DNA of 46,345 nt. Origin: Clostridia bacterium. Its GTDB lineage: Bacteria; Bacillota; Clostridia; Christensenellales; Aristaeellaceae. The translations under genes and the position numbers were made by a program. Below, piece after piece: positions 13,866 to 41,700 of this stretch (position 1 is its first letter; the number at the start of each line of letters is the position of its first letter). The notes under the pieces are model-generated. The model was not told where the DNA came from, ran no database searches, and saw nothing but the letters and a program-made list of their open reading frames with translations. Where the stretch lies: positions 1 through 46,345 of the forward strand of contig JAFUHD010000113.1 in NCBI GenBank assembly GCA_017469025.1. Reading direction: 5' to 3'.

Positions 13866-14396
13866 TCAGGTGCTGCCGGATTTGTTCAGAATCTGCCGTG
13901 CATAATCCGTCATTTTTAAGCCATGCGCCATTGCATAGTGCTGCATGTGGGAATGTGCCTGCGGTTCTGTCATGCCGTGATTCCGGATGAGTATCTGTTT
14001 GGCTGCCTCTACCAGCTGCCGGTCCGGCTGTGACCGCTGCGGATGATTCATATCATACAGCTGCGTGAGCATTTCAACAGCGCCAAGAATTGACTGTCCG
14101 GTACATGGATAACTGAGATGAAAGAGGTTATGGGCATTGTGCACTTCAATGACTGCGGGTCTTGCAATAAGGAGGATCTGCAGCTGGTGATGGAAATCAC
14201 AGAGCAGGTCTTCAGGCGATGTATCCGGCAGAAGACCCGCCATAATCAGAAGCGCATGATCACAGGCACTCAGTGTACGCCTGACTTCACCTGCAGACCC
14301 ACAGCTTCTGAATGGAACAAAGCCGGCGGTGCCCAGTACCTGGGCAAGCTGAGAACGTGCACTTTCGAGCGCACTGGCAATCAGGATCCGGGGCAC
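13866..14396 (-). CDS. ANTAR-domain transcription antiterminator with pseudo-receiver domain
   Basis: The start GTG 14396 is fixed by GGGAGG seven bases upstream and gives 176 residues; the frame stays open a further 52 codons upstream through repeat elements, but that part is not receiver-like. Residues 1-115 resemble a response-regulator receiver (RILIASALESAR...) that lacks the phosphorylatable Asp: the beta-3 end reads HALLIMAGLLPD. Residues about 125-170 (EAAKQILIRNHGMTEPQAHSHMQHYAM) match the ANTAR domain, which binds paired RNA hairpins and prevents termination, as in NasT, EutV and AmiR. Its place between glnA and gltB points to control of nitrogen assimilation genes. The loss of the Asp suggests control by protein contact or ligand rather than phosphorylation (inference). 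Confidence 0.88.
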   Translation of the reverse strand: MPRILIASALESARSQLAQVLGTAGFVPFRSCGSAGEVRRTLSACDHALLIMAGLLPDTSPEDLLCDFHHQLQILLIARPAVIEVHNAHNLFHLSYPCTGQSILGAVEMLTQLYDMNHPQRSQPDRQLVEAAKQILIRNHGMTEPQAHSHMQHYAMAHGLKMTDYARQILNKSGST

Positions 14397-14404
14397 AAGT
14401 AAAC

Positions 14405-14499
14405 CTCCCTTTTTTTGACATAGTTGTGCTTTTGGCACCGTATCAATCGCAAATGACCTGTTTTGACAGACCAGCACAAAGTGCTGGGACAAGTCCGTT
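14405..14499 (-). repeat. Dispersed ~86-bp repeat, copy A (upstream of ANTAR gene)
   Basis: A diverged copy. It retains the CCAGCAC-TTT-GTGCTGG hairpin, the TCTGTCAAAA motif and the GTGCCAAAAGCAC hairpin, and its 3' end delivers the GGGAGG that serves the ANTAR gene. The coding-like frame of the element has lost its stop and runs on in frame into the ANTAR gene. Confidence 0.8.
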
Positions 14500-14553
14500 A
14501 ATGACATGGTTGTATTTTCGGCCTTGTACCGACTGCGGTTGATGTATGACAAC
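14500..14553 (-). repeat. Dispersed repeat, degenerate partial copy A'
   Basis: Only the 3' half is recognisable: TTGTCA-, then GGCCGAAAATACAACCATG and TCATTAACGGAC, matching the family's PKARLCH-coding end. It lies directly against copy A, so copies here are in tandem. Confidence 0.55.
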
Positions 14554-14574
14554 TCGCACGGCGTGCATGGAAGT

Positions 14575-14666
14575 CTCCTTTAATGACATAGTCGTGCTTT
14601 CGGCACCGGATCAAAGCAGATGTCATTGTTTGACAAACCAGCATGAAGTGCTGGACCATCTCCTTT
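14575..14666 (-). repeat. Dispersed ~86-bp repeat, copy B (downstream of glnA)
   Basis: Bounded by AAAGGAG at both ends (14666-14660 and 14581-14575; spacing 85). It keeps both hairpins and the outer ATGACA/TGTCAT pairing but has a one-base deletion relative to the other copies, which breaks the 26-codon frame. Confidence 0.88.
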
Positions 14667-20144: not shown

Positions 20145-20210
20145 CCGGCGCAAAATCAAAAGGTGAGATTGCAGCCCATTAAGAGAATATGGAACGGTGA
20201 TCTGCGCCGG
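20145..20210 (+). other. Long-range inverted repeat in the leader of the double-HTH gene
   Basis: CCGGCGCA (20145-20152) is fully complementary to TGCGCCGG (20203-20210), closing a 50-base loop within the 180-base leader. I recognise no known riboswitch in it. Confidence 0.45.
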
Positions 20211-20274
20211 TTTGTCAAAAGTGACAAGTGCAATAGTTATGGGGTCAAAAACTGTTTTACAGGAGGGTCTGAAC

Positions 20275-34327: not shown

Positions 34328-35596
34328 TCAGGGGCAGAATCTGGATATTTCTGCACCGAGCGCGTTGAGCTTGTCCTCGAGATGCTCATATCCGCGGTCA
34401 ATATAGTGTGTATTGTAGATCTCCGTTGTGCCCTGCGCCATGAGTCCGGCAATGACAAGTGCCGCGCCGGCGCGAAGATCGCTGGCTTCAACAGCTGCCG
34501 CATGCAGCTGCGGAACGCCTTCAATGACAGCAGTCTGTTCATAGACCCTGACGTTTGCCCCCATGCGCTCCATTTCAGCCAGATGGCGGAAACGGGACTC
34601 AAAGATGTTTTCAACTACGCGTGAGGTGCCGCTGGCCGTGCAAAGCAGTGCACTCATGGGCTGCTGGAGGTCTGTGGGGAAGCCCGGGTAGACCTGCGTC
34701 TTAAAGGAAACGGACCGGTGTTCGCCCATTGACCGGACACGTATGGCGTCATCTTTTTCATCCACGCGTGCTCCCATTTCAAGCAGCTTGGCGGTCAGTG
34801 CCTCCATGTGGGTGGGAATGCAGCCGGTAATGGTGACATCTCCATGGGTCCCGGCAGCGGCAATCATGAGTGTGCCGGTTTCGATCTGATCGGGGATGAT
34901 GGCATAGGAACGCCGGGCAGCCAGGTGACTGGTGCCGCGTACCCGGATGGTATCGGTTCCGGCGCCTTTGATCCTGCAGCCCAGGGAACCGAGAAAGTTG
35001 GCCAGATCAACGATATGGGGTTCCTTGGCGGCATTGTGGATGGTGGTCATGCCCTCTGCATGTGATGCGGCCAGCATGACGTTAATGGTGCCGCCGACGG
35101 TAACCATGTCCATAAAAATGTCGGTCCCCACAAGGCCGGAAGACTGGGCAACGACCATGCCGTAGGACGTTTCAATATTGGCCCCCAGCGCACGCATGCC
35201 CTTGAGATGCTGGTCAATCGGGCGGCGCCCGATGTCGCAGCCGCCGGGCATGGGAACCTGCGCTTCGCCGAACTTTGCGAGGAGTGCACCAATATAGTAG
35301 GAAGAGGCCCGCATTTTGCGGGACAGTTCGAGCGGTACATCCGTCCGTGTAATGGTCGAGGCGTCAACGGTCATGGTGCCGGTATCCGGATTCCATTCCA
35401 CGGTGGCACCCAGATAGTTGAGCATCTCCACGGATACGCGGACGTCCTCGATATCAGGCAGATTTTCTATGACACAGGGGGTATCACAAAGGATGGCGGC
35501 AGGGATGATGGCAACGGCGGAATTTTTGGCGCCGCTTACATGGACGGTCCCTTCGAGACGGTGACCGCCGACAATCAGCATCCGTTCATCAGACAT
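34328..35596 (-). CDS. murA: UDP-N-acetylglucosamine 1-carboxyvinyltransferase
   Basis: It transfers enolpyruvate from PEP to UDP-GlcNAc, the first committed step of peptidoglycan synthesis. 422 residues from ATG 35596, with AAAGGAGG upstream. The substrate residues Lys24-Asn25 are in VSGAKNSAV, and the catalytic cysteine that fosfomycin alkylates is Cys120 in MPGGCDIGRRP, so the enzyme should be fosfomycin-sensitive. Other motifs: PDQIETGTLMIAAA, YPGFPTDLQQPM, NIFESRFRH and DLRAGAALVIAGL. Its ribosome binding site is the one at the 3' end of repeat copy C. Bacillota often have two paralogues (MurA/MurZ); which one this is cannot be told. Confidence 0.96.
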   Translation of the reverse strand: MSDERMLIVGGHRLEGTVHVSGAKNSAVAIIPAAILCDTPCVIENLPDIEDVRVSVEMLNYLGATVEWNPDTGTMTVDASTITRTDVPLELSRKMRASSYYIGALLAKFGEAQVPMPGGCDIGRRPIDQHLKGMRALGANIETSYGMVVAQSSGLVGTDIFMDMVTVGGTINVMLAASHAEGMTTIHNAAKEPHIVDLANFLGSLGCRIKGAGTDTIRVRGTSHLAARRSYAIIPDQIETGTLMIAAAGTHGDVTITGCIPTHMEALTAKLLEMGARVDEKDDAIRVRSMGEHRSVSFKTQVYPGFPTDLQQPMSALLCTASGTSRVVENIFESRFRHLAEMERMGANVRVYEQTAVIEGVPQLHAAAVEASDLRAGAALVIAGLMAQGTTEIYNTHYIDRGYEHLEDKLNALGAEISRFCP

Positions 35597-35603
35597 GGCG
35601 AAC

Positions 35604-35696
35604 CTCCTTTAATGTCATAGTCGTGCTTTCGGCTTTGTATCAATCGCAGGTGTCATTATTTGACAAACCAGCATGTATTGCTGGGCCATCTCCTGT
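35604..35696 (-). repeat. Dispersed ~86-bp repeat, copy C (upstream of murA)
   Basis: Its 3' end is the AAAGGAG that serves murA; the other boundary is ACAGGAG, 86 bases away. The 26-codon-like frame is conserved (MAQQYMLVCQ ... PKARL) but ends two codons early at TGA, while the outer RNA stem (TGTCAT to TGACAT) and the GTGC arm (to AAGC) are weakened. Confidence 0.88.
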
Positions 35697-35863
35697 TCTT
35701 GAATCATATTGGACTGATTAAGGAATGCGCCCATTATACACAGATGTCCATTTTTTGGCAAGCAGTCACCCTCCGGCGGGGGGAGAACGGGCGCTGAATG
35801 CGGTGCATCTTTCATCAGAATGGTCTCGGTCTGCCGCCGCGGCGAAAGGCTCAGGAATCGTTT

Positions 35864-40717: not shown

Positions 40718-41372
40718 TTGTACCTCCATGAAAAAAGAGCAGACGCTGCTTCTCTGCCGTGATGCCGCAAAACAGAGTGAGGAAATGCAATGGTGACAAC
40801 GGCATCTGCCGGTATCCGGATCACAGATAGTCAGCTGTCCCTGGCAACGACGGATGCGCCGCACCGGTTCAATCATGATGGGCATTCTAAAACGTGCCGT
40901 ACGTTCTGTCAATTGATTCCGGAAAACACGGAACTGCAGCAATGTGAAGCCGTTTCTGAGCTTCCCGTGGAAACCCGGGAAGCACCCATATGGGAAATAC
41001 AGAACACAGGGTGAGGCAGGAATCAGAAAAAGTATCCGTCAGCATGCACCGAATCGGGCTGTTTGTTACAGTTCACGGGTATCAACGAATACTTTCCGCT
41101 GCCGTCATGGAGATAAGCTTTTCGATATAAACAAACGGTTATTACAACCAACAGATATGTTGGTTATTTTTTGATTTAAAAAACTGCTTTAAGAAGGAAG
41201 ATTAACTGTCTTCCGGGGACTTCATGGCTCCCAAATGGAATAAGGCTTTCCTGATTTTTCACAGTTTTTCACACTTTTTTGGCTTATTTGCAATAAGTCA
41301 GATGCATGTTAATACCAAATAATGCCATTTATGCTGAATGATATCACCATTTGTGTATAGTCTCTGATTGTC
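40718..41372. other. Gene-poor stretch with an orphan terminator
   Basis: No frame on either strand looks like a gene. The first 225 bases are the open but unsupported extension of tmcAL. AT content rises sharply after about 41080. An orphan plus-strand terminator is at 41146-41172 and a small inverted repeat CTTATT-TGC-AATAAG lies at 41282-41296. Confidence 0.5.
41146..41172 (+). terminator. Orphan intrinsic terminator
   Basis: An 8-bp stem (AACCAACA / TGTTGGTT) with a GATA loop followed by ATTTTTTG. No plus-strand gene precedes it within 1.6 kb, and the PBP gene already has its own terminator. Confidence 0.7.
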
Positions 41373-41599
41373 TTACATAGACGTAAGAGAGGAATTCTCT
41401 TCTCGAAACACACTGTAAAGTGCACGCAGGTTATCGTCCGAAATCTCCGGAAAAAAACGAGATTTCCACAATCCGCGCAACACGTTTCTATTCCGGTATA
41501 GTGATACTCTTTGCCTTTAATCGTGCCCGTCATGGGAAAGGATACAGTGGTATATTCCACATCATTTCTGCATTCCTCGCAGAAGGTTTTCTTCATCAT
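41373..41599 (-). pseudogene. YgiT/MqsA-type zinc-finger antitoxin, frameshifted
   Basis: The start ATG 41599 follows AAAGGAG (from repeat copy D). The first 45 residues are normal for the YgiT-type N-terminal zinc finger: TFCEECRNDVEY, TGTIKGKEYHYTG and CCADCGN, with two CxxC pairs. At a run of seven T (complement of 41451-41457) the frame slips; adding one T restores FFPEISDDNLRALYSVFREEN-, the expected continuation, up to TAA at 41373-41375. The C-terminal XRE DNA-binding half expected in full-length MqsA relatives is missing. It pairs with the toxin remnant upstream. A homopolymer base-call error could account for the slip but not for the short C-terminus. Confidence 0.75.
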
Positions 41600-41607
41600 G
41601 ATAGCTT

Positions 41608-41700
41608 CTCCTTTAATGACATAGTCGTGCTTTCGGCACCGTATCAATTGCAGTTGTCATGATTTGACAAACCAGCATGAAATGCTGGGCCATCTCCTTT
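41608..41700 (-). repeat. Dispersed ~86-bp repeat, copy D (between toxin and antitoxin remnants)
   Basis: The best-preserved copy. AAAGGAG occurs at both ends (41700-41694 and 41614-41608; spacing 86). It holds a perfect 7-bp hairpin CCAGCAT-TTC-ATGCTGG, TTTGTCAAA, the hairpin GTGC-CGAAA-GCAC inside an outer ATGACA/TGTCAT pairing, and a 26-codon frame that begins MAQHFMLVCQ, ends PKARLCH and stops on the TAA that runs into the second AAAGGAG. Confidence 0.92.

Follow-up and report, generated by a model that had tools for sequence, protein, structure and literature searches.

What is a repeat of 86 bp doing in front of unrelated genes, with its own end apparently serving as their ribosome-binding site? 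The question is raised by the window, the whole stretch of 46,345 nucleotides analysed here (contig JAFUHD010000113.1 of a gut Clostridia bacterium whose genome is called G000 below), in which a first-pass annotation had described four copies and one partial copy, all on the minus strand. Re-reading of the sequence found the named copies at their reported places and on that strand, and an old copy on the plus strand has to be added to them (Table 1). The supposed partial copy at 14500-14553 proved to be a whole, though diverged, unit of about 82 bp, so that positions 14407-14659 form a tandem array of three units. Unit D has the consensus form, and 15 places identical to it over 87 bases are listed, the window copy counted in. 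At the contig start, the window also carries tandem direct repeats (1-427 and 437-591), consisting of a 166-nt family with 42/45-nt steps and another family with 18-nt steps, ahead of a gene whose protein matches Flg_new and DUF11.

Table 1. Copies of the repeat and neighbouring features in the window
Feature	Position	Strand	Remarks
Unit D, 86 bp, consensus form	41608..41693	-	The next ORF probably uses the right end AAAGGAG (41608-41614) as its ribosome-binding site
Left flanking AGGAG (apparent target site) of unit D	41694..41698	-	From sequence
ORF of 96 aa after unit D	41309..41599	-	Without Pfam match
Unit C, 86 bp, in the murA 5' leader	35604..35689	-	From sequence and model search
Left flanking AGGAG of unit C	35690..35694	-	Within the ACAGGAG site, which is empty in G023, G016 and G015
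Promoter-like TTGCCA-17-TATAAT of murA, upstream of unit C	35733..35761	-	By eye
Gene of the EPSP synthase family (PF00275), presumably murA (first-pass name)	34328..35596	-	Pfam match
Unit B, 85 bp, first in the three-unit tandem array	14575..14659	-	Left AGGAG at 14660-14664
Second, diverged unit of the array (about 82 bp)	14493..14574	-	Ends by eye
Unit A, diverged, last in the array	14407..14492	-	Right end falls on what is probably the ANTAR gene's ribosome-binding site
ANTAR-domain regulator gene after the array	13866..14396	-	PF03861, scanned from 14387; start by eye
Old, decayed copy	20184..20266	+	Model search, E=2.4e-6

The repeat unit is 86 bp long, reads ATGGCCCAGC...CATTAAAGGAG and has AGGAG immediately on its 5' side. 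In G000 (4.25 Mb in 373 contigs), AGGAG adjoins the left end in 48 of 60 well-kept cases and the full AAAGGAG in only 27 of them, so the earlier description of AAAGGAG at both ends fits units B and D but not the family genome-wide. At the right end, every base of AAAGGAG is retained in 75 to 81 of 81 cases. Outside the ends conservation is slight in G000, with no more than 0.24 bits per position from -8 onwards to the left and no more than 0.15 bits beyond the right AGGAG. Judged from these ends and from the pairs of imperfect ends compared below, the left AGGAG seems to be the target and the right AAAGGAG to be borne by the element. The family described from the window is real and far larger than the copies first noticed: a core pattern, three mismatches being allowed, gave 367 matches on both strands of the whole genome against 0 for its reversed control, and a right-end pattern gave 252 against 0. 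Over 81 pieces, made up of the window and 80 further stretches (1.03 Mb in all, about a quarter of the genome), 248 units form 156 arrays, and since these pieces were mostly picked for containing matches, densities there are not genome averages. The arrays comprise 94 single units, 36 doubles, 22 triples and 4 quadruples. Several copies lie at contig ends (e.g. C292, C97 and C117), as expected of a repeat that breaks assembly. On contig C118 (L126, 11425-11464), a nearly perfect inverted repeat has the left end of the element facing itself near a normal copy.

Evidence for movement is comparative, from draft assemblies, and comes from empty orthologous sites, relative to which the murA copy is a clean insertion of 86 bp and a two-unit array one of 2 x 86 bp. 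The murA leader of G000 reads ACAGGAG, then 86 bp with AAAGGAG at its end, then GTTCGCC-ATG, whereas the empty leader of G023 reads ACAGGAGGTTTATC-ATG and those of G016 and G015 read ACAGGAGGTC. A model search of 26 loci including that of G000, from which G004, G008 and G017 were left out, found the element at the murA leader in none of the 25 other loci of the genus. Inspection by eye of the leaders printed for 24 genomes including G000, to which the model search added L215 and L222, found no element before the start codon in the 23 others, and most of them have promoter-like boxes similar to those in the window. A copy in G002 lies about 320 bases upstream of murA on the other strand (L201:3081-3168), not at the leader, and is independent of the murA insertion in G000. 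Three further loci could be compared: a two-unit array of G000 (L144) stands where G015 has an empty AAAGGAG (L166), a copy in G004 (L193) where G000 has an empty AGGAG (L085), and a copy in G002 (L178) where the G000 locus, without the element, has the site AGGAAGG (L119). The murA leaders and the empty site in G015 agree with the first-pass proposal that the repeat was inserted into Shine-Dalgarno-like sequences and that the site is normal where the repeat is absent.

As the best explanation, and quite a probable one, the 86-bp repeat is a short mobile DNA element that is non-autonomous and regenerates the Shine-Dalgarno site it enters. On comparison, the copies have fixed ends, empty sites, dispersed positions, recent and old members, two covarying stems and species-specific subfamilies, and no conserved coding; of the proposal, the dispersal, the target and the restored end are well supported by such comparison. 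The element would insert in one orientation immediately 3' of AGGAG, preferring (A)(A)AGGAG, the Shine-Dalgarno core. As it ends in its own TTAAAGGAG, AAAGGAG would be restored before the gene upon insertion, and the downstream gene would regain a correctly spaced ribosome-binding site. Arrays may grow partly because copies bring new AGGAG targets at their ends and partly by tandem duplication. Insertions would persist mainly where they are harmless and so collect in ribosome-binding sites and at other intergenic AGGAG.

A position ahead of genes could also mean that the repeat is a structured RNA leader, co-opted or native, which regulates translation and whose copies spread because they are useful. 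Many copies do directly precede a start codon. Over 145 arrays (11 of the 156 being left out), a start codon 3-14 nt past the terminal GGAG, opening an ORF of at least 60 codons, was found behind 93, most commonly at a spacing of 8, compared with 131 of 423 free AAGGAG sites and 12% of random places. The remaining 52 arrays have no qualifying start codon, and some copies lie at the AGGAG of terminator-like stems (L130, L092/L120; by eye), both of which speak against a leader. When only intergenic sites were compared, with 27 of the 156 arrays left out as near stretch ends, recent arrays (last-unit score of at least 85) preceded a gene in 45 of 75 cases (about 60%), and free sites did so in 17 of 32 cases for AAAGGAG, 49 of 88 (56%) for AAGGAG and 108 of 236 (46%) for AGGAG. 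The mild excess over AGGAG (Fisher p=0.035) favours a leader, while there is none over AAGGAG (p=0.63); genes were called here as simple longest ORFs, and the classes are noisy, as 23 of 83 before-gene arrays were also flagged as ORF-spanned. Since the share before genes is close to that of free AAGGAG sites, location follows largely from the target motif together with presumed selection against hits in genes, and the element need have little further preference for ribosome-binding sites as such. The downstream genes identified (EPSP-synthase family, ANTAR and phosphofructokinase) are unrelated, again contrary to what a regulatory leader would suggest.

The structure of the repeat is the other point in favour of a leader, since two stems covary across species and the stretches TTTGTCA and GCCGAAAG are mostly conserved as sequence. 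AGGAG and GGC(C) are mostly conserved as well, and the foot of the palindrome is mostly GGC(C), with AGGAG further 5'. Among 45 distinct rows from G000, G015, G004 and G002, helices 1 and 2 each have changes on both sides at 7 of 7 pairs, and the whole structure has 151 both-sided-change cells in the four-species alignment, which was itself fitted to the structure; shuffles gave 44.8 such cells and slid controls no more than 36. Two of the five measures in this test were weaker, with 9 of 500 shuffles as high for both-sided pairs and 120 of 500 for further pair types. Among 70 units from G000, both-sided changes affect 4 of 7 pairs in hairpin 1 and 2 of 7 in helix 2, with 28 both-sided cells in the whole structure versus 9.7 in shuffles, and RNAalifold run on the G000 copies alone gave only a weak fold; the between-species covariation test, not RNAalifold within G000, was decisive for the structure. 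In a plain MAFFT alignment, helix 1 gave 59 versus 15.1; the right stem is misaligned there, so support for helix 2 comes from the fitted alignment and from direct reading, in which the best stem was a different one in some copies, including all five of G002. Within G000, the alternative pairing TGTCA/TGACA is conserved to about the same degree, and an inner GTGC/GCAC hairpin is poorly conserved across species (63% paired). Of the hairpins noticed at first, hairpin 1 is real and shows the reported T-A/C-G exchange; the ATGACA/TGTCAT pairing, which covaries across species, had been ascribed to each copy, yet it is intact in D, shortened in C and broken in A. Against a leader, the ribosome-binding site is left accessible by the predicted fold: over 59 cases, the predicted mean probability that the terminal AGGAG is unpaired is 0.52 with the element and 0.38 for the joined empty site (p=3e-4). 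Taken together, the modular regulatory leader that the first-pass annotation offered as an alternative is weakened by the arrays without a start codon, the terminator-like stems and the share before genes, and a leader is an unlikely account of the family.

The mobile element that restores its own target has also to be distinguished from a classical MITE, moved by a DDE transposase and flanked by a 5-bp AGGAG target duplication. Empty sites have one AGGAG, and of the 53 arrays in which both ends are preserved, 38 are flanked by AGGAG left and right, as such a duplication would leave it. In the 15 others, the variant is on the left only in 8, on the right only in 3 and on both sides but different in 4, so that the same variant occurs at both ends in none of the 15 imperfect pairs. 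If the target were duplicated, its variants should recur on both flanks, and their failure to do so argues against a MITE, although left variants may reflect decay of one side after insertion and not imperfect targets. The 7-bp duplication suggested previously fails on the same pairs, and 5 bp (AGGAG) at most are shared by the two ends. In addition, the unit has no terminal inverted repeats, its ends ATGGCCCAGC and TTAAAGGAG not being inverted copies of each other (by eye, unit D). A MITE of this kind is accordingly improbable.

A MIRU-like coding element, with a 26-codon ORF in each unit whose TAA overlaps the next AGGAG and whose translation is coupled, has a very small probability. The consensus unit does have the form ATG...TAA AGGAG, the 26-aa frame is intact in 91 of 137 distinct units, and raw substitutions favour third positions (291 vs 176 and 171), with a synonymous share of 0.42 against 0.25 expected. 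The raw lean towards third positions is due to a few frequent variants, however, and counted by mutation type the synonymous share is 30 of 117 (0.256) against 0.236 expected. Spacings between units often differ from 86 by 1, 2 or 4 bases, and AGGAG adjoins the ATG without spacing. The start codon is at the aligned place in 0 of 13 copies of G004, 8 of 8 of G002 and 5 of 25 of G015, and the frame is open for at least 22 codons in 0 copies of G004, 1 of G002 and 4 of G015. A conserved 26-codon ORF was rejected since mutation types are not enriched in synonymous changes and the frame is lost in sister subfamilies, and the element appears to be non-coding.

Neighbouring units are spaced by exactly 86 in 51 of 92 pairs. 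Their median identity is 0.87 versus 0.85 for random pairs, the mean rank of neighbour similarity is 0.33 (0.5 meaning no excess), and in 11 of 53 neighbour pairs the two units are near-duplicates, closer to each other than to nearly all sampled units. Such modest similarity with some near-duplicates fits nested insertion plus some tandem duplication. It also speaks for a plain tandem repeat (VNTR) spreading solely via recombination and slippage, which is scarcely credible given that 94 of the 156 arrays are single units, that the ends are precise and that orthologous sites, the single-unit murA site among them, are empty.

If the repeat is a mobile element that returns its target intact, the least certain step is the enzyme. 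A single-strand transposase (HUH/Y1-type, IS200/IS605-like) acting in trans is possible, if doubtful; the idea comes from the stems near both ends of the unit, the fixed left target, the absence of terminal inverted repeats and insertion that apparently leaves no duplicated target. The IS200/IS605 family is not known to duplicate its target. Y1 transposase matches were found in 19 of 41 genomes, with the element present or absent. In G000 there are four partial Y1_Tnp matches only, none of them linked to the element, and in G004 and G002 element copies lie some 560 and 1,260 bases away from the Y1 genes that were read; at the loci read in four species, all draft genomes, no element stands at the ends of a Y1_Tnp gene. 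No longer, gene-carrying copy or parent with the same ends was found in the 1.03 Mb of G000. The sole separated pair of ends there, 142 bases apart in L121, was judged by eye to be two decayed neighbouring units.

Diverged, species-specific subfamilies occur in G015, G004 and G002, members of the same genus. A model derived from G000 matched 4 of 29 genus members at E <= 0.001, and a four-species model run on seven members at E <= 0.01 gave at least 150 matches in G015, 138 in G004, 98 in G002, 5 in G016 and 4 in G023, and none in G021 or G008. In an even draw of 200 genomes of the family, some of this genus, G000 was the sole match under stricter filters and 21 scored candidates per genome, settings with which scattered old copies elsewhere could be missed. 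As judged by murA identity, the carriers are close to G000: G023, G016, G015 and G002 are at 88-91% and G004 matches in two pieces of 93% and 82%, with G021 at 84% and the remainder among the matches listed at 82% or less. Three of the four element-rich species (G000, G004 and G002; 4.3-5.0 Mb) have the largest genomes listed in the genus, and members without the element are mostly of 2.2-3.3 Mb. A pattern search of a collection of named genomes, which may leave out near relatives of G000, matched six stretches, five in the MAG RGIG4336 from roe deer jejunum and the sixth in a Lachnospiraceae bin from roe deer rumen. The contig of that bin, on which G000-type tandem units lie at L165:3868-4046, is possibly misbinned. 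Contig G015:C43 (L164) also bears G000-type units; of the G000 loci L132 and L131, one matches its right side at 84% and the other its left side at 94%, and the two parts meet at the element, so it is either a rearrangement via repeat copies or a chimeric assembly. Phages and plasmids gave no match at E 1e-5, and viral contigs none to the element pattern.

The repeat may, as a tentative proposal, stand for a new minimal class of mobile element that inserts at the Shine-Dalgarno core and has a working Shine-Dalgarno site as its end, able to occupy hundreds of sites, many in gene leaders, with no gene silencing and moved by a so far unseen enzyme through a structure-guided single-strand mechanism. 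It would suggest how a selfish element can pick a motif found before many genes, land there and return the motif intact. With its carrier relatives, four expanded subfamilies and clean empty sites, it offers a good system for the spread of short repeats that lack a transposase, and one suited to the study of insertion tolerance in the leaders of genes such as murA.

No described family like this one was known to the first-pass annotation, and comparison with Rfam agrees: there were 0 matches in the window at gathering score, and, with E values up to 0.5 admitted, 0 for four loci taken one from each subfamily. In the literature, a search of open-access papers, with most subscription journals outside it, found no repeat or transposon aimed at Shine-Dalgarno sites. 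The nearest parallels are MIRU in logic, and REP elements and the ends of IS200/IS605-type repeats in form. Pneumococcal BOX and RUP are likewise small interspersed repeats with strong predicted RNA structure, but as described in the available part of PMC3049150 they have tightly folded, base-paired terminal inverted repeats and BOX is modular, with a tandem boxB module; that part makes no mention of an AGGAG target. Non-autonomous elements of the IS200/IS605 type share the subterminal stems at both ends and the fixed short target adjoining the element, and move by a guide-sequence mechanism according to the accessible portion of PMC6006769. The right end of the present element repeats the target motif, unlike theirs, and no IS200/IS605 element with matching ends was found. 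REP, BIME and REPIN sequences, in the sections available of PMC8266576, PMC3116915 and PMC6006769, also have hundreds of mostly intergenic copies, stem-loops near a short conserved motif, species-specific sequence and tandem clusters. The element differs from REP/BIME in having no GTAG/GTGG at the hairpin foot and no inverted REP pair in the unit, and from REP with TnpA-REP (RAYT) in its direct tandem arrays, its fixed target and the lack of any linked TnpA-REP at the loci read. Membership of both MIRU and REP was rejected on the features tested. Like MIRU, the element nonetheless consists of short intergenic direct repeats within the range of 40-100 bp, which occur singly or in tandem, seem to be mobile and insert at a signal for translation start while doing the gene little harm, as far as the available parts of PMC12548453 and PMC2734929 describe these repeats. 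MIRU insert at start codons and do little harm by way of an internal ORF coupled to the gene, in the account given by the accessible text of PMC12548453. The present element enters behind AGGAG and ahead of the start codon, shows no coding conservation, has two covarying stems and restores the Shine-Dalgarno site, and it would thus be a second solution to the problem that MIRU meet with a coupled ORF.
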